Assembly (NCBI GenBank): GCA_029210745.1
Contig: JARGFI010000025.1
Coordinates: 1-40,322 of the forward strand
DNA length: 40,322 bases
Direction of reading: 5' to 3'
Source of the DNA: Desulfuromonadales bacterium
GTDB taxonomy: Bacteria; Desulfobacterota; Desulfuromonadia; Desulfuromonadales; JAHYIW01
Shown here: positions 28,529 through 40,322 of the stretch, piece by piece
Numbering within the stretch: position 1 is the first letter of the stretch
Layout: the number at the start of each line of letters is the position of its first letter
Notes under the pieces: model-generated
Database searches by the model: none
What the model was told of the DNA's origin: nothing
What the model saw: only the letters and a program-made list of their open reading frames with translations
Translations under genes and position numbers: made by a program

Positions 28529-28605
28529 GGGGCTGTAGTAGAGTCGGTTACAACGCCGGCCTGTCACGCCGGAGGTCGCGGGTTCAAGTCCCGTCAGCCC
28601 CGCCA
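28529..28605 (+). tRNA. tRNA-Asp (GTC), copy 1
   Basis: 77 nt, CCA encoded. Acceptor GGGGCTG/CAGCCCC; anticodon loop CTGTCAC gives GTC. D-stem GTAG/CAAC has an A12-A23 mismatch. Confidence 0.95.
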
Positions 28606-28614
28606 TTACTTTTA

Positions 28615-28690
28615 GGGCGAATAGCTCAGCTGGGAGAGCATCGGCCTTACAAGCCGAGGGTCACAGGTTCGAGCCCTGTTTCGCCCACCA
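28615..28690 (+). tRNA. tRNA-Val (TAC)
   Basis: 76 nt, CCA encoded. Acceptor GGGCGAA/TTCGCCC; anticodon loop CTTACAA gives TAC. Confidence 0.96.
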
Positions 28691-28727
28691 TTTAAAATCG
28701 CAGTGATGCCTTATCTTCACTCCGTCT

Positions 28728-28804
28728 GGGGCTGTAGTAGAGTCGGTTACAACGCCGGCCTGTCACGCCGGAGGTCGCGGGTTCGAGTCCCGTCAGCCCC
28801 GCCA
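28728..28804 (+). tRNA. tRNA-Asp (GTC), copy 2
   Basis: 77 nt, identical to copy 1 except TTCGAGT in place of TTCAAGT in the T-loop. CCA encoded; same D-stem mismatch. Confidence 0.95.
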
Positions 28805-28817
28805 TTCAACTTTAAAA

Positions 28818-28846
28818 GGGCGGCTCGAACGAGCCGCCCTTTTTTT
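28818..28846 (+). terminator. Terminator of the second tRNA cluster
   Basis: GGGCGGCTC (28818-28826) and GAGCCGCCC (28831-28839) form a perfect stem with a GAAC loop, then seven T. Confidence 0.9.
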
Positions 28847-28902: not shown

Positions 28903-29865
28903 ATGAAACTCATTCACGTTATTGTTGCATCGATTGTTTTCGCGTTTTTTACCTTTCCTGCTCTTGTTTGTGCCGCGCCATCTGCCGGGGTTGTTGCAAA
29001 AGTAGGTGGAATTCCGGTGACAATGTACGAATTGGACAGAGCGGTCCAGAAGATTGTTCCACTGCGCAGTTCGTTTCACTCTGGAATCTCTGCGGATAAA
29101 GTGAAAAAAATTCGCCAGGAAGCCCTTGATGACCTGATTGAGCGTGCTTATAAAGTTCGTGCTGCTCTGGATCTTGAGGTTTCGGTTGAAAATGAAGCTG
29201 TTCAGTCAAAAATGGCCGCTTTGCGCAATAAATTTTCTTCTGAAAAAGAATTTTCCACCGCCTTTGGTGAAGAAAAACCGGGGGGGTACAGGGCTTCTCT
29301 CTATCGACAGTTGCTGGCTGAAAAAGCAGAAAAAATCAATGTCGACGACAAAATAGAAATTGATGAGAGCGCCATTCGTAATGCCTATGAGAGTCGGAAG
29401 CATGCTTTTTTTCGCCCTCAGCAATTTCGCGCCAGTCATATTCTGATCAAAATTGATCCTGCTTCTAACAAGGAGGAGCGGGCTGCATTGCGGACCAGAG
29501 CCGAAGAGTTGCTGGCGCGTGCCAGGCAGGGGGAGGATTTTTATAATCTTGCCTATTACAATTCCGATGATCGCTCAAAGATGGTCGGCGGCGACATTGG
29601 TCTGTTCCACGAAGGTCAGACTGTTCAAGTTTTTGAAGATGCGGCCAAAAAACTCAAGGTCGGTGAAATTTCTGACATCGTTGAATCCCTTTACGGCTAT
29701 CATATTATTAAATTGACAGAAAAGAACCCGCCTCGCCAGTTGGAATATGACGAAGTTAAAACCAGCATCATGATGCAAATGAAAAAAAAGCTTCGCGATC
29801 AACTTTATGCTGAGTGGATGAACTCTTTGAAGAAAAAATACACCGCCGAAGTTTTTCTTAAGTGA
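28903..29865 (+). CDS. Periplasmic parvulin-type peptidyl-prolyl isomerase
   Basis: 320 aa from ATG 28903 (CAGGAG 6 nt upstream; an in-frame ATG at 28849 is in the preceding terminator). Signal peptide 1-24 (LVCAAP). A SurA-type N-terminal helical region (about 28-150; VAKVGGIPVTMYELDRAVQK, with LDDLIERAYKVRAALD), then one parvulin domain (about 173-275; RASHILIKI, FYNLAYYNSDD and the GGDIGLFHEGQ turn), then a C-terminal helix. PrsA/SurA relatives fold exported proteins. It is first in a run of NHL protein and two multihaem cytochromes, all apparently one operon, so those are the likely clients. Confidence 0.9.
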   Translation: MKLIHVIVASIVFAFFTFPALVCAAPSAGVVAKVGGIPVTMYELDRAVQKIVPLRSSFHSGISADKVKKIRQEALDDLIERAYKVRAALDLEVSVENEAVQSKMAALRNKFSSEKEFSTAFGEEKPGGYRASLYRQLLAEKAEKINVDDKIEIDESAIRNAYESRKHAFFRPQQFRASHILIKIDPASNKEERAALRTRAEELLARARQGEDFYNLAYYNSDDRSKMVGGDIGLFHEGQTVQVFEDAAKKLKVGEISDIVESLYGYHIIKLTEKNPPRQLEYDEVKTSIMMQMKKKLRDQLYAEWMNSLKKKYTAEVFLK

Positions 29866-29876
29866 CCTGCGCATAA

Positions 29877-30926
29877 ATGCACCGTTTGTTTTTAGCCATA
29901 TCAGCGACGGCACTGCTTCTTTTGTCGTCTTCTTGTGTTCTTCGCTCGGAACAGCCGGTTCGTTGGCGTGATGATTCTCCTGAACTGGTCTGGCCCGTCC
30001 CCCCCGCGCAACCGCGCATTAAATACCTGCGTTCATTGCACGGGTCGGTCGATTTCTCGGTTGAAAATGTTGGAATCACGTTTTTTCGCTGGTTAAGCGG
30101 GGAAAAAGACAAGAATTTCACACTTTCCGTGCCGTTCGGTGTGGCGGCCGACGGTGATGGAAGGGTTTGGGTCACCGACCCCCCGCAGCGAACTATTTTT
30201 TGTTTTGATTTGCGTCGCCAAAAAGTTTCTATCATAAAAGCCTTGTCCGGACGCTATCTGATGTCTCCGACCGGAATCAGCTACGATCCGGTTAAAGATA
30301 TCTTGTCTGTCGCGGATTCTGCTCTGGATACCGTCTTTGTTTTTACCCCTGACGGCACACTCCTTGGCGAACGCGTTCCGCAAGGCGGTTACGGGCGACC
30401 GGGGGGGGTGGCGTTCGATGCAGATTCAAACCTTTATGTCGCCGATGTTACGCGCCATCAGGTGGTTAAATTCGCTGCTGATGGCAACTTTCTCGGGGTT
30501 ATCAAGGGGCAGACGGCCCCTGAGTATGACTTCAATACTCCCGTCCACTTAGCAGTTGATACAGAGCAACAACTCTATGTTACAGATTCGATGAACTTTC
30601 GGGTTGAAAAGTTTGATGAAGTCGGCAAGTCTTTAAGTGTATTCGGAAAAATCGGTGATGTGCCGGGCAGCTTTGCGCGACCTCGCGGAGTTGCGATCGA
30701 TAGTGAACGGCATCTCTATATCGCCGATGCGCTGCTGGATAATGTGCAGATCTTCAATCAGGAAGGGCAATTGTTGCTTGCGTTCGGTAAAACAGGCACC
30801 GAACGAGGCGAATTTTCGCTCCCCGCCGGACTTTTTATTGATCGACATAACCGGCTTTACGTTGTTGACAGTTACAATCGGCGCATACAGATTTTTACCT
30901 ACCTAACGGACAAGGCAGCTCCATGA
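29877..30926 (+). CDS. NHL-repeat beta-propeller lipoprotein
   Basis: 349 aa. N-terminal signal ending in SSSC (Cys20), probably a lipoprotein. Residues about 80-345 carry five or six NHL/SMP-type blades, each with a 'G-x-A-x-D/N-x-x-x-x-L/V-Y-V-x-D' core (for example VAFDADSNLYVADVTRHQVV, then VAIDSERHLYIADALLDNVQ, then LFIDRHNRLYVVDSYNRRIQ). Propellers of this kind serve as protein-binding platforms. The position between the parvulin and the cytochromes suggests an assembly factor or scaffold for them. The ATG lacks a strong SD, 11 nt after the parvulin stop, so it may be coupled. Confidence 0.87.
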   Translation: MHRLFLAISATALLLLSSSCVLRSEQPVRWRDDSPELVWPVPPAQPRIKYLRSLHGSVDFSVENVGITFFRWLSGEKDKNFTLSVPFGVAADGDGRVWVTDPPQRTIFCFDLRRQKVSIIKALSGRYLMSPTGISYDPVKDILSVADSALDTVFVFTPDGTLLGERVPQGGYGRPGGVAFDADSNLYVADVTRHQVVKFAADGNFLGVIKGQTAPEYDFNTPVHLAVDTEQQLYVTDSMNFRVEKFDEVGKSLSVFGKIGDVPGSFARPRGVAIDSERHLYIADALLDNVQIFNQEGQLLLAFGKTGTERGEFSLPAGLFIDRHNRLYVVDSYNRRIQIFTYLTDKAAP

Positions 30927-31041
30927 AGTGGCGCATTTTTTGCAAATAGAGTTTTCTGCATTTAATGTCGGTCTTAGTTTGTGGTGTGTTTTCCGGAAAG
31001 TTGCAGACAGCGTTATTCTTATTTATCAGGATCAGCCTACA

Positions 31042-31851
31042 GTGATTATTCGCTTTTTTATTCTACTTTTGTTTTGCGGGTTTTTTTCTGCTGCGGCATT
31101 TGCAGCTTCTGATCCCCTCTATCTGGGGGAAAATGATGGGGTGAACCCCAACCCGCACAACCTGTCAAATATGAGTCAAGCTGCGATTAAAGCAGCCGAC
31201 ACCGGTGATCCCAACGAAACACGCATCTGTGTGTTCTGCCATACCCCGCACGGCGCGACGCCAGACACACCGTTATGGGGGCGTCTCGATCCGCTCTTGA
31301 TGGGGTCTTTCCCCGTCTATAACTCCGCATCAACGATTCAGATTCGCGATACTCCCGCGACCAGGGCCCTGGCCGATTATGATAATGGCGGCGAATACCC
31401 CAACGGTGCGAGCAAGCTGTGTCTGTCGTGTCACGACGGTGCCACTGCCATCGGTACCATGGCGAACGATGTGGTTATCGCCATGGCCTTGAATAGCGAC
31501 TATATTACAGATGCACAAATGATTTTTGATGACGTTTCTTTAGGGGATACGCATCCGATCTCGTTTGTCTACAATTCGTCGGTGGTTACGGCGCTGGGGG
31601 CAGGATATAATTCCATTTCCCCTTATCTTGACGGTCGGCAGCGCATGCAGTGCACCACCTGCCACGATCCGCACTTCAATTCAGATCTCGCTGACGGGGC
31701 CCGCCGGGCACCCTACGGTGCCGGTGGCACATACGATTTGCCCTTCTGGCGCGGGGCGGGGACGAATGAAGCGACGGAATACGACGCGATTTGTCAAGCG
31801 TGTCACACCGCGACTCCCGGAACGACTCCTGGTGATCCACATGCGATATAA
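31042..31851 (+). CDS. Tetrahaem c-type cytochrome, OmcE-like
   Basis: 269 aa from GTG 31042; AGGA lies about 11 nt upstream, and translation from there gives an ideal signal peptide (IIRFFILLLFCGFFSAAAFA). Four CxxCH haem sites: 63-67, 127-131, 204-208 and 251-255. Five extra histidines (39, 70, 171, 210, 267) would allow bis-His ligation of all four haems. The pattern CVFCHTPHG...PLWGR, then SKLCLSCHDGATAIG, then DTHPISF, then QCTTCHDPH resembles the tetrahaem OmcE-type cytochromes that polymerise into extracellular filaments in Geobacter. That assignment is recollection plus motif spacing, not an alignment. It overlaps the next cytochrome by 11 nt. Confidence 0.85.
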   Translation: MIIRFFILLLFCGFFSAAAFAASDPLYLGENDGVNPNPHNLSNMSQAAIKAADTGDPNETRICVFCHTPHGATPDTPLWGRLDPLLMGSFPVYNSASTIQIRDTPATRALADYDNGGEYPNGASKLCLSCHDGATAIGTMANDVVIAMALNSDYITDAQMIFDDVSLGDTHPISFVYNSSVVTALGAGYNSISPYLDGRQRMQCTTCHDPHFNSDLADGARRAPYGAGGTYDLPFWRGAGTNEATEYDAICQACHTATPGTTPGDPHAI

Positions 31852-32962
31852 TTCAGCGATAGAAATAAAATTTTTTCTTGCATTTCTTTCGGCGGTGCTT
31901 GTCCTTGTTTTGGCAGGTTCTGTTGATGTTTTTGCTGGGCAAAGCAAGCTGCAAGGGGTTCATGGAGATCGCTCCCTGATGTCGAAATCGTGTCGCGCCT
32001 GTCACCGGGGCATGACCATGGTTATCAGCGGGGAGGAAGGGGTTTGTCTCGATTGTCACGGTACTGCCGAGCGACGCGACATCATGGTCAAGCGCGGTTA
32101 TCTGAAACAGCGCGCGGTTGGTTATCTTGCTGATATTGATGCCGAGGTGCGTAAACCCTATGCTCATCCGGTTCGGTTGGTGCGTGGTGCTCACCGCAGC
32201 AACGAACTTCTCCCCGAGGAAGAAGTCAACGCCCCCCGCCACGCGGAATGTGTCGATTGTCACGAATCACATTCGACTGATGTTGAAACGCCGTTCGGCG
32301 GGATCAAAGGGAAACGCGTTGGCAATCTGGTGTCACAAATTGAGCAGGAATTTGAGTTGTGTTACCTGTGTCATTCGTTCAGTGCGAATCTGCCCGCTTT
32401 TTCAACCGATAAGCATAATGAATTCAAAATGACGAACCCCTCCTTTCATCCGGTCGAGGGGGAAGGGAAGCGCGAATTCGTTGTCAGTCTTCTGCAACCT
32501 TACGCTGCGCGGAAGAACAAACCGGCTGATATTTCAACGATCAGTTGTTCCGACTGCCACGGCAGCGATGCGCCTGACGCTCCCGGCGGACCGCACGGTT
32601 CAATTTACCGTGGTTTGCTGAAACGGAACTACGAGACAGAAGATGGTTACCCGGAAAGCGCCTTTGCTTATGCCCTGTGTTACACCTGTCACGATCGCGG
32701 CAGTATCTTGTCCAATGAAAGTTTTTCTTTGCATCAACAGCACATTCAGGGGTTCAGTCCGGATCAACCCGGCACCAGCTGTTATACCTGTCATGATGCC
32801 CATGGCAGTACGATGAATCCTTACCTGTTGACTTTTAATCAAGCGGTGGTTGAACCGACCAAAGAAGGCAAGCTGGAATACAAAGCCGAAGGCGTTGCCG
32901 CCTTTCATGGCAGTTGCACCCTGGTCTGTCATGGTGTCGAACATAATCCAAAAACATACTGA
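31841..32962 (+). CDS. Octahaem c-type cytochrome (seven CxxCH, one CxxxCH)
   Basis: 373 aa from ATG 31841, inside the end of the preceding gene (11-nt overlap; GGTGAT upstream). Signal peptide about 1-32 (VDVFAGQ). Haem sites CxxCH at 51, 69, 137, 174, 236, 280 and 314, plus CTLVCH at 359-364, an unusual four-residue spacing. Many further His (109, 118, 134, 144, 192, 203 and others) permit bis-His ligation. The paired 'C-x-x-C-H ... C-x-x-C-H' layout matches the doubled-CXXCH cytochrome family. A periplasmic or outer-surface electron carrier partnering the tetrahaem protein is inferred. Confidence 0.86.
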   Translation: MRYNSAIEIKFFLAFLSAVLVLVLAGSVDVFAGQSKLQGVHGDRSLMSKSCRACHRGMTMVISGEEGVCLDCHGTAERRDIMVKRGYLKQRAVGYLADIDAEVRKPYAHPVRLVRGAHRSNELLPEEEVNAPRHAECVDCHESHSTDVETPFGGIKGKRVGNLVSQIEQEFELCYLCHSFSANLPAFSTDKHNEFKMTNPSFHPVEGEGKREFVVSLLQPYAARKNKPADISTISCSDCHGSDAPDAPGGPHGSIYRGLLKRNYETEDGYPESAFAYALCYTCHDRGSILSNESFSLHQQHIQGFSPDQPGTSCYTCHDAHGSTMNPYLLTFNQAVVEPTKEGKLEYKAEGVAAFHGSCTLVCHGVEHNPKTY

Positions 32963-32985
32963 ATTTATTCATTCTTGTGTCTGCA

Positions 32986-33014
32986 AGGGTCGACGTTTTG
33001 CGTCGGCCCTTTTT
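32986..33014 (+). terminator. Terminator after the cytochrome genes
   Basis: AGGGTCGACG (32986-32995) pairs with CGTCGGCCCT (33001-33010), one wobble and a 5-nt loop, followed by TTTT. It separates the cytochrome unit from the secretion genes, although read-through is possible. Confidence 0.7.
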
Positions 33015-33053
33015 AATTTAAATATGTTTTTCTCCATGCTACTATGCGCAATT

Positions 33054-34256
33054 ATGCCAAGCTTTCGTTGTAAAATTGGAACTGCTGACGGACGGGTGGT
33101 CGAAAAAGATTTCAATGCCGCCGACCGCGAGATATTGCGTGAAAGCCTCGAAGAACAGGGGTTCTTTGTTTTCCGGATCAGCAACCGGTCACTGAATTTA
33201 TTTTCACACGGATCACACGTCAGGGTGAGCGGACGACGCCTGTTGACGCTCAATCAGGAACTGATTGCCCTGTTGCGTTCCGGATTGCCGATTCTTCAGG
33301 CACTCGACACGTTGATTGAGCGCATGGAGGCGGGGGCGCTGCTTGAGGCCCTTCAGGATATTCGCGAAAGCATCAAGGGCGGAGCGTCCTTGTCAGAAGC
33401 TTTCGAAAAATATCCGCACATATTTTCCAACCTTTATATTGCCGCATTGCGGGCAGGAGAACGCACCGGCGATTTGCCGGTCATGCTGAAGCGCCACATC
33501 GAGTATCAGAAACGTGTCGAATCGCTCAAGGCCAAGGTGCGTAAAGAGAGTTTTTATCCGCTGTTGTTGATGGGGGCGGTTTGTGGCGTGGTCCTGTTCC
33601 TGATGCTTTACGTGATTCCGACCTTTTCACGGGTGTTCGCTGACGCCAACATGGAACTGCCGTTTTTGACGCGGGTGTTGATCACGGTGGCGCATGGTTT
33701 GGCTGGCAGCGTGATCTTCTGGCTGCCACTGCTACTTGCCGCGATCTGGGGTGGACGAATTTACTTCCGCAGCGTTAACGGCATGTTGCTGCGTGACAAA
33801 ATAAAACTCAAATTGTTCTTTTTTGGTAAATTGTTCGCTGATTATGCGCTTTCCAATTTTTGTCGAACACTGGAAACGACATTGGCCAGCGGTGTTCCGC
33901 TTGTGCAGTCGATGCAGATGTCACGCGGCGCGTTGAATAACCGGATCCTCGAAGAAAAACTGAAGGCGGCGACCCGCCAGGTTGAGGAAGGCGGCGAGTT
34001 TTCCGTTGCGCTGGAACGGACCGGATTTGTTCCGTTGATTGCGCTACGCATGCTGGCGGTCGGTGAAGCCGGTGGTTCACTGGAGTTGATGCTGAGCGAA
34101 GTGGCCGATTATTATGAAGCGGAAGTCGAACAACGCCTCGATCGGCTGACAACGTTGATTGAACCGATCTTGATGTTGACGATGGGGGTGGTGGTGGGAG
34201 GAATTATTGTTGCCATGTATATTCCGATCTTCCAGCTTGCCGGAACCGCCGGATGA
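33054..34256 (+). CDS. Type II secretion / type IV pilus inner-membrane F protein
   Basis: 400 aa from ATG 33054 (MPSFRCKIGTADGRVVEKD, the usual N-terminal beta segment of GspF/PilC); upstream in-frame ATGs at 33024 and 33036 have no better SD, and the frame farther up overlaps the octahaem gene. Two T2SF domains (about 65-190 and 270-395) flank the TMs: around 165-190 (LLLMGAVCGVVLFLMLYVIPTF), around 215-235 and around 370-395. It is the platform protein that couples the E ATPase to pseudopilus assembly. First gene of the secretion operon. Confidence 0.9.
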   Translation: MPSFRCKIGTADGRVVEKDFNAADREILRESLEEQGFFVFRISNRSLNLFSHGSHVRVSGRRLLTLNQELIALLRSGLPILQALDTLIERMEAGALLEALQDIRESIKGGASLSEAFEKYPHIFSNLYIAALRAGERTGDLPVMLKRHIEYQKRVESLKAKVRKESFYPLLLMGAVCGVVLFLMLYVIPTFSRVFADANMELPFLTRVLITVAHGLAGSVIFWLPLLLAAIWGGRIYFRSVNGMLLRDKIKLKLFFFGKLFADYALSNFCRTLETTLASGVPLVQSMQMSRGALNNRILEEKLKAATRQVEEGGEFSVALERTGFVPLIALRMLAVGEAGGSLELMLSEVADYYEAEVEQRLDRLTTLIEPILMLTMGVVVGGIIVAMYIPIFQLAGTAG

Positions 34257-34272
34257 TGAGTGAGGTAAGCAG

Positions 34273-35988
34273 GTGAGTTTTGAACGAAAAAAATTAGGAG
34301 AAATCCTCGTTGAGATGGGGACGTTGACGCCCTCCGAGGTTGATCTCCTGCTGGCCAAGAAAAAGATTTCCGGAACTAATTTCGGTCAAACCGGTGTCCT
34401 GGAAGGGCTGTTCAGCGATGAAACCCTGGCGCAGGCCATCGCCAGCCAATATGGGCTGGAATATATTGATCTGGAGTTTTTTTTGCCGGAGTCCGAACTC
34501 CTCGAATCGTTGCCCTCCGGAGCGCCACTACGATTCGGTTTCATGCCGATTGAACGCACCGATAAGGGGTTGGTCGTTGCTGTTGCAAATCCGACTGACG
34601 TTGAAAATCTCGACGATCTTGAACTCCTGTTGGGGGAGCCACTTATTCTCAAGGTCGGTTCCGCCAGCCGGATTCATCAGCTCCTTGAAAAGGGCGATAC
34701 CTCCAATCGTGTGCTGCAGGAAGTTTCGGAAGATTTCAAACTGCAACTGGTCAAGGAAAGTGACAAGGGGGATGAAGTCCTTTCTCTGGAAAAACTCGCT
34801 GATGACGCCAGTCCGATAATTCGCCTGATCGATTCGACCCTTTACGATGCACTGAAAAAGCGCGTCAGTGATATTCATATCGAATCGACGCCGCAAGGCG
34901 TGGTGATCAAATACCGGATCGACGGGGTGCTCTATCGGGCGACCGAGACTCTCGACAGCCGCTTTCAGGGGCCGATTATTTCGCGGATCAAGGTGATGAG
35001 TGAACTTGACATCTCTGAGCGACGGATCCCCCAGGACGGGCGTTTCAAGGTTCGTCTGGGGAGTAAATCGATCGATTTCCGGGTGTCGATCATGCCCAGT
35101 GTTTTTGGTGAAGACGCCGTTATCCGGATCCTCGATAAAGAATCGATTGCCTCCGACCTGAAAGGGTTGACGCTGGAAGTGCTCGGATTTCCGGAGCGTG
35201 AACTGAAGCGTTTCCGCCGGCTGATCCGTGAGCCTTACGGCATGATTCTGGTCACCGGTCCGACGGGGAGCGGTAAAACCACCAGTCTCTATGCTGCGCT
35301 CAGTGAAATCAAGAGTGATCAGGAAAAGATTATCACCATTGAGGATCCGGTCGAATATCAGGTTGCCGGGGTGGTACAGATTCCGGTTAATGAAAAGAAA
35401 GGGTTGACCTTCGCGCGTGGCTTGCGTTCTATCTTGCGGCATGATCCGGACAAGATCATGGTCGGCGAGATCCGTGATCCGGAAACGGCACAAATTGCGG
35501 TCCAGTCAGCCTTGACAGGTCACCTGGTTTTTACTACGGTCCATGCGAACAATGTTTTTGATGTGCTGGGACGTTTCATGCATATGGGGATTGACCCGTA
35601 TAATTTTGTCTCCTGTCTCAATTGTGTCATCGCGCAGCGGCTGGTACGCAAGTTGTGTCCCCACTGTCGAAAGCGGGTTGAGTATTCGCGTGAGCGCCTC
35701 GAAGAATCAGGTCTCGATTACACAACCTTTCGCGATCTGCCTCTCTATGAGGGGGAGGGGTGCAAGGACTGTAATGGAACCGGGTACCGGGGGCGCAGTG
35801 CGATTGTGGAACTGCTGGTGCTCGATGATCATTTGCGCGAGCTGATCATGACCCGCGAGCCGGTGGCGCGATTAAAACAGGTGGCGCGTGAATCAGGGGT
35901 CGTCTTCCTGCGCGATTCGGCGGTAGAAAAGCTGGTGGCCGGGATAACGTCGTTGCCGGAGATCGATCGGGTGACTTTTGTCGAGTAG
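34273..35988 (+). CDS. GspE/PilB-type secretion ATPase
   Basis: 571 aa from GTG 34273. An N1E/MshEN domain (about 1-150), then the hexameric ATPase: RVSDIHIES (Asp box region near 197-205), Walker A GPTGSGKT at 329-336, TTIEDPVEY-type Asp box region, HDPDKIMVGEIRD Walker B, and the C-terminal C4 zinc finger with CPHC (about 462-465) and CKDC (about 498-501). It powers pseudopilus extension. 16 nt after the F gene. Confidence 0.93.
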   Translation: MSFERKKLGEILVEMGTLTPSEVDLLLAKKKISGTNFGQTGVLEGLFSDETLAQAIASQYGLEYIDLEFFLPESELLESLPSGAPLRFGFMPIERTDKGLVVAVANPTDVENLDDLELLLGEPLILKVGSASRIHQLLEKGDTSNRVLQEVSEDFKLQLVKESDKGDEVLSLEKLADDASPIIRLIDSTLYDALKKRVSDIHIESTPQGVVIKYRIDGVLYRATETLDSRFQGPIISRIKVMSELDISERRIPQDGRFKVRLGSKSIDFRVSIMPSVFGEDAVIRILDKESIASDLKGLTLEVLGFPERELKRFRRLIREPYGMILVTGPTGSGKTTSLYAALSEIKSDQEKIITIEDPVEYQVAGVVQIPVNEKKGLTFARGLRSILRHDPDKIMVGEIRDPETAQIAVQSALTGHLVFTTVHANNVFDVLGRFMHMGIDPYNFVSCLNCVIAQRLVRKLCPHCRKRVEYSRERLEESGLDYTTFRDLPLYEGEGCKDCNGTGYRGRSAIVELLVLDDHLRELIMTREPVARLKQVARESGVVFLRDSAVEKLVAGITSLPEIDRVTFVE

Positions 35989-35992
35989 GAAT

Positions 35993-36910
35993 ATGTTACG
36001 AAGAACTTATCTGGGGCTGGATGTGACTGGTTATGAGTTGCGTGCCGTCTCCTTGCGTCGTGCCGGCAAAAGTGTGGCACTGAGCGGCGGAAAATTTTTG
36101 TCATTGGCGCCGGGACGTTTGACAGTTTCTCCCCATAAACTCAACATTATTAATCGCTCCGGTCTGGTCAGTGATCTGCGGGATCTTTTTGATGGGTTGG
36201 CGGGAGGGGAGGAGCGGGTTGCGCTGTCCTTGCCGGATCTCGCCGGACGGCTGCTGTTGACCGAGATTGAAGCTGAATTTAAAAGTCATGCTGAAGGGCG
36301 GGAAATTCTGCGTTGGCAGATGAAAAAAAAACTGCCTGCGGAACTCGGCGAGTTGCAACTCGATTTTCAGACGTTGCGCAAAGAGGAAAGTGGTCGGTCC
36401 CGCGTTCTGGTCGGGCTGTTAAGCAAGGCGTTGGTCGAGCAATATGAGGAGGTGCTGGAGGATGCCGGTTTGCAGCCGGTACAGATTGAACTGCACGCCC
36501 TGGCGCTCTTTAACTATTATGTCCAGCGACGCTTTGACCTGGGGGAAGATTTTATTTTTATCGGGGTCGAAAATGACAATCTGATCATCAGTTACTTTCA
36601 GGAAAAGTGTCTGACCTTTTGCCGCGTCAAGTATCTGGCTGCACACCCCGATCGGGTATTTCAGGAAGTGAATCGCTCGATCGTTGGTTTGCGGGAGCAA
36701 TTTCACACCTTGCGGCGGGCAACGGTTTTTGCCCACATTGAGCCGGTGGACGTTGATGATTATATCACCGGATTACAAGCGGTTTTTGAGCGTGATATCG
36801 TCCTCCTTGACCCCAGAATTGATCGCCTGGCGAATTTTGCAAGCAGTTTCGATAAAGACGACGCGTTGCGTTTGACGGCAGCTATCGGCGCGGCTGAAAG
36901 ATTATTATAA
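35993..36910 (+). CDS. pilM: PilM-like cytoplasmic ring protein
   Basis: 305 aa from ATG 35993. A YLGLDVTGYELRAVSLRRAGKS start with actin-fold (FtsA/PilM-like) topology; DLAGRLLLTEIEAEF and the LPAELGELQLDFQ region are typical of PilM/GspL cytoplasmic domains. It recruits PilN to the inner membrane. The start codon directly follows the pulE-type stop (4 nt), with AGGA at short spacing; an in-frame TTG 35978 is unlikely. The gene order M-N-O-P follows. Confidence 0.82.
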   Translation: MLRRTYLGLDVTGYELRAVSLRRAGKSVALSGGKFLSLAPGRLTVSPHKLNIINRSGLVSDLRDLFDGLAGGEERVALSLPDLAGRLLLTEIEAEFKSHAEGREILRWQMKKKLPAELGELQLDFQTLRKEESGRSRVLVGLLSKALVEQYEEVLEDAGLQPVQIELHALALFNYYVQRRFDLGEDFIFIGVENDNLIISYFQEKCLTFCRVKYLAAHPDRVFQEVNRSIVGLREQFHTLRRATVFAHIEPVDVDDYITGLQAVFERDIVLLDPRIDRLANFASSFDKDDALRLTAAIGAAERLL

Positions 36911-36913
36911 ACA

Positions 36914-37480
36914 ATGAAGCTTGCTATTAATCTGGCCACTAAATCTTACCCGAACCGGCGTGCACTGACTGCCGGGGGGACGCTGTTGCTGGTTCTTCTG
37001 GGGGTTTTTCTGGTCAACAACCTGATCGGGCTGGCGGCCGAAAATAATCGCACCAGGCAACTGGTTGAGCGTTTTTCTGCGTTGGAAGAATCGCCGGGGC
37101 AGACAGTGGCACAGGCCCCGGTCGTGCCGCAGGTCAGCTATTCGGCAGAGGCACTTGAGCAGCAACGGCAGCGGATCATTGTGGCGAATCGTTTGCTGGA
37201 GGAAGATGCCTTTCGATGGACGGCCCTGCTTGACCGGTTGGAAGCGATTCTGCCTGAAGGAGTCAGCCTCAGTTCGATGGCACCGCACTTAAAGGACGGG
37301 GTTATCAACATCAGTGGTGAGTCGCGGGATGTCCCGACCCTTCAGCTTCTCCTCGACCGTTTACTTGGCAGTGAATTCTTCTTTGATGTGCGTTTGGCGA
37401 GTCAGTCACGGGTTAAAAGTCAAAGTGAAGCGACGCAAGTCCAGTTTAATCTCAGTCTGATCTGGAAAGAAATTTTATGA
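36914..37480 (+). CDS. pilN: PilN-like inner-membrane protein
   Basis: 188 aa with the diagnostic MKLAINLATKSYPNRR N-terminus ('NLA-x-x-x-Y/P-x-R'), a single TM (about 23-42), a coiled region and a ferredoxin-like periplasmic domain (about 110-185; LLEEDAFRWTALLDRLEAILP). It binds PilM through its N-terminus and PilO through the periplasm. Its TGA overlaps the PilO ATG by 4 nt. Confidence 0.85.
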   Translation: MKLAINLATKSYPNRRALTAGGTLLLVLLGVFLVNNLIGLAAENNRTRQLVERFSALEESPGQTVAQAPVVPQVSYSAEALEQQRQRIIVANRLLEEDAFRWTALLDRLEAILPEGVSLSSMAPHLKDGVINISGESRDVPTLQLLLDRLLGSEFFFDVRLASQSRVKSQSEATQVQFNLSLIWKEIL

Positions 37481-38040
37481 TCGTGGCGGCGAGTTTTCAG
37501 TTGCTGTGGCGCACCCAGAAACCGCTGATAATAATGCTGTTGATCGCGGCACCATTGTTGGTCGGCATCCTCGGCTATCGTCATCTGGTAGCGATCCCCC
37601 GCCTGGCAACGCTCGAAAAAAACTATTTACAACGCCAGGCGCAAGTCCGTCTGGAACAGGCCGGGCGGGCCAGAAATCAGGGGCCGGCTGCCGAGTTTCA
37701 ACGCAACCTGGAGGATTTCCGTCTCTTTGATGAAAAGCTTCCCCAAGAGCATGAATTTTCTGAATTGATCGGTGAACTGGACACCCTTGCCGCCGCGACT
37801 GGACTTAACCTTGCCTCGATCAACTATCAGACAGAAATTATCGAGGAAAGCGGGATTCTTGCCTATTCGCTGCAATTTTCATTGCAAGGTTCTTATGCCC
37901 AGGTGAAGCGTTTTCTGCATTCACTTGAAATGTCGCGACGCTTGATAACCATCGACAGCCTGGGCTTGAGTGGCGGTGCTGACGGTGACGGTGCTTTGCG
38001 CTTGAAGGTAACCACCTACTTCAAGGCGGAGGAATCATGA
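37477..38040 (+). CDS. pilO: PilO-like inner-membrane protein
   Basis: 187 aa. Single TM (about 16-35), a coiled coil (about 42-85), and a C-terminal ferredoxin-like PilO domain (about 92-185: LIGELDTLAAATGLNLASINYQ, then GSYAQVKRFLHSLEMSRR). It heterodimerises with PilN. Overlaps both neighbours by 4 nt (ATGA). Confidence 0.87.
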   Translation: MIVAASFQLLWRTQKPLIIMLLIAAPLLVGILGYRHLVAIPRLATLEKNYLQRQAQVRLEQAGRARNQGPAAEFQRNLEDFRLFDEKLPQEHEFSELIGELDTLAAATGLNLASINYQTEIIEESGILAYSLQFSLQGSYAQVKRFLHSLEMSRRLITIDSLGLSGGADGDGALRLKVTTYFKAEES

Positions 38041-38867
38041 CCCGTTCCCAGCGCCTGATGGTTATTGCCGTCATTATTTTTATACTGTCACTGGTGTATG
38101 CCTGGCTGGAGACCCCACGTCTTGAAAAAGCACCACCGGTGCTTGAAAAGAAAGTCGTCCGTGCTGAAAATAAATCGTCAGCAGAGGTCGCGCGTCTCTA
38201 CGCAGGACGCCTGCGGGTCGATCTGTTGACGCATAAAACGGGCAAATATTCCGGAATCAAACGCGATCTTTTCACCGGCAAGGTTGCTGCCAGTGCTCCG
38301 CCACCCCCCCCGCCCCCTGAGCCGGAAGTTGTCGCCACGCCCGCACCTGAACCGGTGGCCGATGAAGTATCCGCCGCGCCGGTGGCCGAGGTGGTGCGAA
38401 CACAGTTGGCACAATTTACCTTTCTCGGTTATCTTAAAAAAAAGTTTCAGCAATCGGTATTTTTGACCGCCGCCGGAGAAATTTTTATTGTCAAACAGGG
38501 GGATCGATTCGGTGATCAGTCACGCTTTGAAGTGCAGACCATCACTGTCGACAAAATGATAATTTCGGACCACGTCAGCGGGAGTTTTGTCAGTGTTTCG
38601 TTGGTTGAACAAGCGCCGCTGGTGCCGGATGAGATGCCTTCCGCAACGGCACCGCCGGGAGCATCAAGGTATCACCCCGCCGCTGTTTCGCCGCCAGTTT
38701 CGCAACCTGCCGTGGTGCCGTACCCGCATCCGACCGTGATTGAGCCAGCGCCGGACAGTGCGTCCCCGGTCGATGCGGAAGAGGTGCCGGTCGACTCAGA
38801 GGTTCCGGCGCATACCGACGTGCCGCCCATGTTGATCAACTTTCCCAAAGGGATTTCGCATGACTAA
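38037..38867 (+). CDS. PilP/GspC-like connector with Pro-rich arms
   Basis: 276 aa. N-terminal TM (about 7-24), a GIKRDLFTG segment (73-81, reminiscent of the 'RDPF' motif in PilP and GspC), a proline run (about 88-107), a beta-rich HR/PilP domain (about 122-192; FTFLGYLKKKFQQSVFLTAAGE, KQGDRFGDQ) and a Pro/Ala/Asp-rich C-terminal tail (about 193-276). It is not a lipoprotein (no lipobox), in contrast to typical PilP. It probably links PilN/O to the secretin. The long C-terminal tail is unusual. The secretin ATG lies inside its final codons (8-nt overlap). Confidence 0.8.
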   Translation: MTRSQRLMVIAVIIFILSLVYAWLETPRLEKAPPVLEKKVVRAENKSSAEVARLYAGRLRVDLLTHKTGKYSGIKRDLFTGKVAASAPPPPPPPEPEVVATPAPEPVADEVSAAPVAEVVRTQLAQFTFLGYLKKKFQQSVFLTAAGEIFIVKQGDRFGDQSRFEVQTITVDKMIISDHVSGSFVSVSLVEQAPLVPDEMPSATAPPGASRYHPAAVSPPVSQPAVVPYPHPTVIEPAPDSASPVDAEEVPVDSEVPAHTDVPPMLINFPKGISHD

Positions 38868-40322
38868 CAGGACATTTACCTGGCTTCTTATTGTGCTGAT
38901 TTTGTCGATGACAACCGGCTGTGCCGGGAAACGTGCCTTCAGTCGCGGTGAAGATGCATTGCTGCAACACGACTACGCCGCTGCCGTCAATGAATTCACT
39001 ACCGCTGTTGAAGAAGATCCGGGCAAGCATGAATATCGTATCTCCCTGCTTACCGCCCGTGCCGAGGCGGCGCAACACCACCTGAAGCAGGCGCGGGGCT
39101 TGACCGACGAAGAAAAATATGCCGAAGCTGCAGGCGAGCTGGAACGGGCGATAAGCTATGACCCCGGACTTGATGTCGCTGTTTATGAACTGAACAAGAT
39201 TCGCAAGCGGCTGGAGATGAAAAACCGCCTGGATGAGGCGCGGGCTTTTTATCGAGAGCGGCGTTTGCCGCAGGCGCAACGGGTCATCGACGAGATCCTC
39301 AGAGTCAACCCTGATCAGGCTGACGCGCTGGCCCTGAACGACCAGATCCGCAGCGAGGGGCGTACGTTGATCGACGGGGTCGAGCTGGAGGTTGCTTCCG
39401 ATGAACCGATCACGCTCAAATTCAAGGATGCCGACCTGAAGGATGTATTCAATATTCTGTCGCAATTGTCGGGGATCAACTTTATTTTTGACGGCGAGAT
39501 CCGTTCAGAAAAAATCTCCATTCTGCTTGAAAACGGCACCTTCGGCCAGGCGCTGGAACTGCTGCTGAACATGAACAAACTCGACAAGAAAATTCTCAAT
39601 TCAAAATCGATCATTATCTACCCGCTCTCCAAAGAAAAAGCCAAGCAATATGAAGATCAGGTGATCCAGACCTTCTATCTGTCGAACATCGACGCCAAAA
39701 AAGCGGTCAACCTGCTGCGGACGATGCTCCAATTGCGTAAAGTTTATGTGCATGAAGAACTCAACGCACTGGTCATACGCGATACTCCGGAAGTGATCAA
39801 ACTGGCCAAACAATTACTGGAGGCGGCGGATCGCCAGGATGCCGAAGTCATATTTGATCTGGAGCTGGTCGAAATCAGTCATGGGGACGGGTTGCAAATC
39901 GGTCCGAAGCTGCAAGGAGGCTACCAACTTCAGGCCGGGATTAAAGCCCCGCCTCTGAGTACAACGATACCTGAGTCAGGTGCTGCCGTCACGACCAGCG
40001 AGATTGTCCCCGTTGTGCTGGAATCGCTGCGTGATTTAAGAGGGATCGATTTTCTTTACGGCCTGCCCAGTGCGTCGTTTGACTTGGCGAAAACCAAAAC
40101 TGACAGCGAAATCCTCGCCAATCCCCAAATCCGGGTCAGAAATAAGGAAAAGGCGAAGGTTCACGTCGGTACGCGTGAACCGGTGATCACCGTCACGACC
40201 TCCGGGGATAACGTTACAGAAAATATTCAGTATGTCGATGTCGGGGTCAAGCTGGATGTTGAACCGACCGTGCAGCTTGACAATACCGTCATTACCAAGA
40301 TAACCCTTGAAGTGAGTAGTGT
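38860..40322 (+). CDS. TPR-secretin lipoprotein (GspD/PilQ family), partial
   Basis: At least 487 codons; runs off the window, 3' end missing. ATG 38860 overlaps the PilP-like gene. Signal and lipobox TTGC with Cys21. TPR-like repeats (about 27-150; ALLQHDYAAAVNEFTTAVEE, then ARAFYRERRLPQAQRVIDEIL), then a secretin-TonB N0 domain (about 185-240; ITLKFKDADLKDVFNILSQL), an N1 domain (about 265-325; VIQTFYLSNIDAKKAVNLLR) and the beginning of the secretin pore domain (about 327 on; AEVIFDLELVEISHG). It makes the outer-membrane channel. TPR fusion to a secretin is seen in delta-proteobacterial secretion operons. Confidence 0.9.
   Translation, partial: MTNRTFTWLLIVLILSMTTGCAGKRAFSRGEDALLQHDYAAAVNEFTTAVEEDPGKHEYRISLLTARAEAAQHHLKQARGLTDEEKYAEAAGELERAISYDPGLDVAVYELNKIRKRLEMKNRLDEARAFYRERRLPQAQRVIDEILRVNPDQADALALNDQIRSEGRTLIDGVELEVASDEPITLKFKDADLKDVFNILSQLSGINFIFDGEIRSEKISILLENGTFGQALELLLNMNKLDKKILNSKSIIIYPLSKEKAKQYEDQVIQTFYLSNIDAKKAVNLLRTMLQLRKVYVHEELNALVIRDTPEVIKLAKQLLEAADRQDAEVIFDLELVEISHGDGLQIGPKLQGGYQLQAGIKAPPLSTTIPESGAAVTTSEIVPVVLESLRDLRGIDFLYGLPSASFDLAKTKTDSEILANPQIRVRNKEKAKVHVGTREPVITVTTSGDNVTENIQYVDVGVKLDVEPTVQLDNTVITKITLEVSS

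Follow-up and report, generated by a model that had tools for sequence, protein, structure and literature searches.

A parvulin, NHL propeller, tetrahaem and octahaem cytochrome cassette beside a type II secretion operon in a Desulfuromonadales bacterium

The locus

The window described here is a stretch of 40,322 nucleotides from a Desulfuromonadales bacterium and comprises a whole contig (JARGFI010000025.1, here C36) of a 2.72-Mb draft genome (GCA_029210745.1). Between positions 28903 and 32962 it encodes a parvulin (PPI), an NHL lipoprotein (NHL), a four-haem cytochrome (TET), and an eight-haem cytochrome (OCT), followed by a terminator and then by F, E, PilM, PilN, PilO, PilP, and a secretin (D), all on one strand. 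Comparison with related genomes gives an even chance that the PPI-NHL-TET-OCT cassette makes a two-piece 12-haem surface cytochrome, which would probably be exported by the adjacent Pul/Oxp type II secretion system (T2SS). Upstream of the cassette lie lon, an HU-like gene, three tRNA genes (28529-28804), and a terminator-like hairpin. The features of the region are as follows.

28728..28804, + strand: tRNA-Asp, the last of the three tRNA genes, 5' of the cassette
28814..28843, + strand: terminator-like hairpin 5' of the cassette, 13-pair stem with T tail
28903..29865, + strand: PPI, PrsA/SurA-like parvulin (Rotamase_3 E=4e-28, SurA_N_3 1e-12); Sec-type signal; AGGAGA before the ATG
29877..30926, + strand: NHL beta-propeller lipoprotein (NHL 4.4e-26), N-terminus LLLLSSSC
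31042..31851 (likely start), + strand: TET, secreted four-haem cytochrome of the OmcE superfamily (predicted); the open reading frame (ORF) opens with GTG at 30928, the signal peptide runs from GTG 31042
31841..32962, + strand: OCT, secreted eight-haem cytochrome, seven CxxCH and one CxxxCH
32985..33011, + strand: terminator-like hairpin in the OCT/F interval, 12-pair stem with T tail
33054..34256, + strand: F, GspF/PilC inner-membrane protein (T2SSF E=1.4e-58)
34273..35988, + strand: E, GspE/PilB ATPase with MshEN domain, by profile matches
35978..36910, + strand: PilM-like protein, scores below curated cut-offs
36914..37480, + strand: PilN-like, by profile match
37477..38040, + strand: PilO/GspM-like, by profile match
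38037..38867, + strand: PilP/GspC-like protein, placed by its position in the operon (no match in NCBIfam)
38860..40322, + strand: D, TPR-containing secretin lipoprotein, truncated after 487 codons where the contig ends

A preliminary description of this DNA had listed genes for a PPIase, an NHL propeller lipoprotein, a four-haem, and an eight-haem protein in one direction, and all four were found in the stated order. The single terminator that it placed before F corresponds to the long T-tailed hairpin at 32985-33011, in a region whose terminator-like sites number 19 in total, which is at chance level (17.6 +/- 3.1 in shuffles). The secretion operon that it called complete has the stated gene order from F to the secretin and is incomplete in the window, as the contig ends inside the secretin gene and pseudopilin genes are not seen.

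The ORFs of TET and OCT overlap by 11 bp. NHL is the next gene 5' of TET, with 115 bp between its stop and the likely start of TET. This start is placed later than GTG 30928 because the closest relative (genome G001, locus L063) carries a stop at codon 11 of the stretch that matches the window from 30928 onward.

Haem ligands and relatives of TET and OCT

TET contains exactly four CxxCH motifs and five other histidines in its mature part (His77, His108, His209, His249, and His305, numbered from codon 30928). The four motifs and the first four of these histidines are invariant in 52/52 sequences; His305 is variable, with histidine in 31/52. The counts given previously, four CxxCH and five spare histidines for bis-His ligation, are correct, with the qualification that only four of the five are invariant. 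The TET family profile matches OmcE (PDB 7TFS) with E=4.2e-32 and 9YUQ with 3.3e-22, and the next match follows at 0.009. All eight haem ligands, that is four CxxCH and four distal histidines, align between TET and the two solved chains. Judged by these matches, TET is a true member of the OmcE superfamily. It extends 14 residues past haem 4, in contrast to the OmcE chain (232 aa) of Geobacter sulfurreducens, which stops two residues past its last CxxCH. The TET subfamily further differs from OmcE and 9YUQ in having an octahaem partner, either as a fused domain or as a separate paired protein. An NHL gene lies within 1.5 kb of 34 of the 35 free four-haem genes examined.

The tree position of TET is less close to the filaments. 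Phylogenetically, TET did not group with the solved filament chains, and its sister domains are those of fused TET-OCT proteins. In a tree of 117 domains, split TET (encoded apart from OCT) and fused TET are joined on one side with a support of 99/93; the filament chains of known structure group with free four-haem genes, and the long-branched free gene L169 and the TET of L174 also fall on the TET side. A tree of 50 rows gives the clade of split and fused TET a support of 98/92, with OmcE and 9YUQ on the opposite side, and the approximately unbiased (AU) test on these rows rejects the grouping of split TET with the two solved filament chains together (p=0.0005). The same genome holds a far better homolog on contig C76, which matches 9YUQ with 1.4e-47 and OmcE with 3e-37, compared to 6.1e-5 and 4.7e-14 for TET itself. 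TET is probably not the OmcE ortholog of this organism and probably belongs to a sister subfamily. The OmcE-like character that had been proposed for the tetrahaem protein is retained at the level of the superfamily and the shared distal histidines; orthology is made improbable by the tree position and by the homolog on C76.

In OCT the eight haem motifs (seven CxxCH and one CxxxCH) and 11 further histidines are invariant in 52/52 sequences, so that the histidine count exceeds the need of eight haems by three. OCT has no close relative among the solved structures (best E=4e-4), and its named relatives are mostly Desulfuromonas and Desulfuromonadales records (7 loci). The mean column identity is 33% for TET versus 61% for OCT (26 sequences for OCT).

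Fused 12-haem homologs

In 28 single proteins of 546-642 aa a TET-like domain is joined to an OCT-like domain, with 12 haem motifs in total (11 in L164). The eight TET ligands are all conserved in 28/28 of them, and most OCT ligands likewise. Such natural fusions favor a 1:1 partnership of TET and OCT over TET acting alone. His41 of OCT had appeared in an automatic alignment as a ligand of the split form only; this candidate was dropped, as direct inspection finds a histidine in the fused linker in 28/28.

The surroundings of the fused genes are recurrent as well. In 23/28 loci an NHL gene ends no more than 22 bp from the fused ORF or overlaps it. Upstream, a haem-free barrel-sized protein (620-800 aa) is encoded in 26/28 and a five-haem cytochrome in 22/28, and an OmcE-type four-haem gene lies farther upstream in 14/28 (in three, the gene is truncated at the edge of the locus). 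The usual order is [OmcE-type four-haem]-NHL-five-haem-~670-aa protein-NHL-12-haem, for example in L157, L160, and L102. An aromatic C-terminal residue is frequent in outer-membrane barrels, and the barrel-sized proteins end in F, W, or Y in 14 of the 19 listed. The ~670-aa haem-free proteins are probable porins; four that were scanned (L160, L101, L100, and L157) match no Pfam family. The operon of OmcE-type gene, NHL, five-haem gene, probable porin, NHL, and 12-haem gene recurs in the phylum and combines filament-type with conduit-type genes. In genome G071 (L101) the fused gene stands directly before the T2SS, at a distance of 103 bp.

Conservation next to the secretion operon

OCT was searched in 98 genomes of the order and in 200 of the class (order members included), which are mostly drafts. 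For each of the 35 other split-form genomes of the order, and for 20 of the 33 found in the remaining families of the class, the locus was retrieved with surroundings spanning at most 18 kb; order adjacency was assessed in the 33/35 loci with at least 900 bp after OCT. All counts over genomes and loci are uncorrected for relatedness. F starts no more than 1.5 kb from OCT in 30/33 order loci, in 20/20 class loci, and in the single locus from outside the class (L174, 1/1), where the order is NHL-TET-OCT-four-haem-F-E-M-N. Adjacency in 50/53 assessable relatives of order and class rules out chance. Where at least 9 kb follow OCT, all of F-E-M-N-O-D is present in this sequence in 22/24 order and 19/19 class loci. 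The fixed gene order that had been proposed for the Desulfuromonadales is accordingly borne out and extends beyond them, and by these comparisons the arrangement of cassette and T2SS is old.

The split form also tracks the presence of the secretion system. A T2SS is found in 66/98 order genomes (PilM match of 1e-25 or better; G017 and G046 counted by F-E). Split OCT occurs in 36/98 genomes, all of which bear a T2SS, and in 0/32 genomes without one (Fisher p=1.2e-8, kinship ignored).

The locus varies in two ways among the other class families. In L118, L119, L122, L123, and L130, NHL is preceded by a glycosyltransferase family 2 gene (5/5 gaps examined; Pfam E 1e-34 to 5e-31). Extensive glycosylation has been described for OmcE (PMC9473688). 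An extra four-haem gene of ~140-157 aa stands between OCT and F in L118, L119, L123, and L135 (4/6 gaps examined), as well as in L174. The window has none; it is perhaps of the GSU1785 type.

The cassette as a unit

Loci of T2SS without the cassette were fetched from 20 of the 23 genomes concerned, and 14 of them are informative, with at least 5 kb before F or with HU reached; the other six hold too short a stretch 5' of F to be counted. At these 14 loci PPI, NHL, TET, and OCT gave no match (E up to 1e-5). Nine of the 14 show lon-HU, and their HU-to-F gap measures 0.4-0.8 kb versus 4.6 kb in the window. Cassette-less T2SS genomes occur within the cassette-holding families f2, f5, f7, and f12, and this co-occurrence in the same families suggests that the cassette was lost repeatedly as a unit. 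The earlier grouping of the four genes into one unit is supported by their joint absence at 14/14 informative loci, with the restriction that PPI is the least constant member and is not always in the cassette.

Identity of the secretion system

In searches with curated models the PilB and GspE scores of E are nearly the same, as are the PilQ and GspD scores of D, and none of the four reaches its cut-off. The Geobacter T2SS has reportedly been called "atypical" in the title of a 2006 paper by Mehta, and the near-equal scores fit this label. The window holds F, E, PilM-, PilN-, PilO-, and PilP-like genes and a secretin in one operon, with PilM below the cut-off, PilP assigned by position, and the secretin cut. 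In relatives, two pseudopilins and then FtsE and FtsX follow downstream; pseudopilin 1 is present in 41/41 relatives with the full operon in reach, and the window ends before this region. Because the relatives carry two pseudopilins and FtsEX next, the operon is most probably a Pul/Oxp T2SS. The Geobacteraceae Pul system is described as needed for OmpB secretion, with the pseudopilins PulG, OxpG, and TklG and with cell-division genes nearby (PMC3543383). The window operon resembles it in the order F-E-M-N-O-P-D and in the pseudopilins and FtsE-FtsX of its relatives, and differs in that its own pseudopilins would lie beyond the contig end.

In G. sulfurreducens GSU1783 is given as PulE, with anode transcripts near the level of PilB (log2 9.70 for PulE and 9.91 for PilB, PMC8557921). 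GSU1785 and GSU1787 are c-type cytochromes; GSU1785 is down in the ihfB-2 mutant and GSU1787 appears in a figure on plasmid-down-regulated cytochromes (PMC7962754, PMC10063792). By these published locus numbers, the cassette is apparently present in G. sulfurreducens around GSU1783-GSU1787. The PulE transcripts and the regulator of the pulF promoter described below support, and do not show, that the T2SS carries TET or OCT.

Comparison with known systems

In Shewanella a T2SS exports surface multihaem cytochromes. A related cluster is the osc cluster of OmcS companions, in which, reportedly (Shen et al. 2025), OscH is a prolyl isomerase and OscD is propeller-like. The window cassette likewise encodes a PPIase and a beta-propeller together with multihaem cytochromes. 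The osc cluster is reported to encode folding (OscH), secretion (OscE, OscF, and OscG), and morphology (OscD) factors with OmcS-type cytochromes (PMC13194489). Compared by description only, it differs from the cassette in its OmcS-type cytochromes and in having OscE/F/G instead of an adjacent T2SS.

Porin-cytochrome conduits are described in OmcB and Ext types (PMC12133095). The fused 12-haem loci are similar to them in their barrel-sized protein and five-haem gene. The window cassette differs, as it has no porin-like and no five-haem gene, and its 12-haem protein comes in two pieces.

Proposed function and alternatives

In the favored model TET with four haems and OCT with eight would associate 1:1, mirroring the covalently fused homologs. 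The parvulin and the NHL lipoprotein would act as dedicated folding and docking factors; the NHL gene beside the cytochrome in both split and fused forms, together with the parvulin, fits roles as in the osc proteins (PMC13194489). The adjacent Pul/Oxp T2SS would bring the completed cytochrome, or only the TET portion of it, to the cell surface. There, TET-OCT would relay electrons between the outer membrane on one side and, on the other, external acceptors or a filament of the OmcE type whose gene lies elsewhere. The TET:OCT complex, the roles of PPI and NHL, the surface location, and the export by the T2SS are what we infer as most likely from the gene comparisons.

Several observations weigh against this model, and many of them are expected if TET and OCT are a cytochrome pair of the periplasm or outer membrane that stands beside the T2SS through inherited gene order, without a functional link, and the T2SS serves only other cargo such as OmpB. 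Within the order, the functionally unrelated lon is kept upstream in 27/27 loci with room for it; as lon is equally kept, order-internal synteny says little and is partly plain inheritance. A T2SS without split or fused form is present in 23 of the 66 T2SS-bearing order genomes, so other cargo must exist, and since Pul is known for OmpB secretion (PMC3543383), the neighboring T2SS would not be a dedicated exporter. The hairpin at 32985-33011 is predicted to be a terminator that divides the cassette from the secretion operon, and in Geobacter a regulator of electron transfer is reported to bind the pulF promoter region, which indicates a promoter of pulF's own (PMC10599522). The three nonadjacent order loci (L086, L087, and L094) all belong to family f7, and in two f7 genomes (G062 and G048, with L086 and L094) the T2SS PilM gene follows OCT on its strand at a distance of 36 and 41 kb. 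This displacement of PilM looks like the result of an insertion. Adjacency to the T2SS is seen in only 1/28 fused loci, PPI was not found upstream in five order loci (family f14) and not detected in 9/20 class loci, and single-chain AlphaFold models from seven-sequence alignments were unusable (pLDDT 30.2 for TET and 32.9 for OCT). Inherited proximity without a functional link is unlikely. Other families of the class keep F near OCT in 20/20 loci, whereas lon is upstream (within ~6.5 kb of OCT) in 10/19; the split form is missing from all 32 genomes without a T2SS; and the fused form also adjoins the T2SS in G071.

A different possibility is that TET is an OmcE-like, filament-forming nanowire subunit exported through the adjoining secretin, with OCT as base or cap. 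The profile matches to 7TFS and 9YUQ, the aligned CxxCH and distal histidines, and the invariant ligand set are all in line with a filament, and haem 2 of OmcE is described as ligated by a histidine of the neighboring subunit (PMC12203936), with the same four distal positions present in TET. The rapid evolution of TET relative to OCT would be expected for a surface polymer. In addition, the AU test does not reject split TET plus OmcE alone as a clade (p=0.17, 50 rows), which also counts against the two-piece cytochrome. The nearest tree relatives of TET are domains fused to OCT, however, the clade with both filament chains is rejected, and the genome encodes the far better OmcE homolog on C76, which makes a filament of TET unlikely.

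It is also conceivable, though quite improbable, that the TET-OCT unit, split or fused, forms the cell-side base of a filament, with its OmcE-like part mimicking a filament subunit for end-to-end docking. Such a base would explain why fused 12-haem genes share an operon with an OmcE-type gene (14/28), a probable porin, and two NHL genes. In split lineages the Pul/Oxp T2SS would place TET-OCT at the surface, and a remote gene, as on C76, would supply the filament.

Other cytochrome loci of the genome

Two further loci of the same genome encode OmcE-like proteins. On contig C76, L108 (4491-10310, minus strand) holds the closest OmcE-type gene found in the genome (7116-7742), an NHL lipoprotein, an eight-haem protein, and a protein of 759 aa that matches no Pfam family. 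By its homologies L108 is the likelier filament locus of this genome. No secretion-operon genes were found on C76, which spans only 10.6 kb. On contig C55, L107 (3-10820, minus strand) includes an ORF that runs to the contig end and encodes 3606 aa or more, with 63 haem motifs. This giant ORF adjoins a second OmcE-like four-haem gene and a 956-aa NHL protein; OmcE-like genes beside NHL proteins of ~950-1050 aa recur in the order.

Significance

Literature searches on the Geobacter T2SS, on the GSU locus numbers of this region, and on T2SS with multihaem cytochromes gave no discussion of the cassette together with the T2SS; Mehta 2006, Wang 2022 (on OmcE), Baquero 2023, and Shen 2025 may contain one. 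The export and anchoring of cytochrome wires and outer-surface cytochromes and their joining to conduits are described as unresolved (PMC12307469). The wide conservation of the cassette beside the T2SS makes T2SS export of a multihaem cytochrome testable by deletions in G. sulfurreducens, and the split and fused forms provide a natural test of which cytochromes pair.

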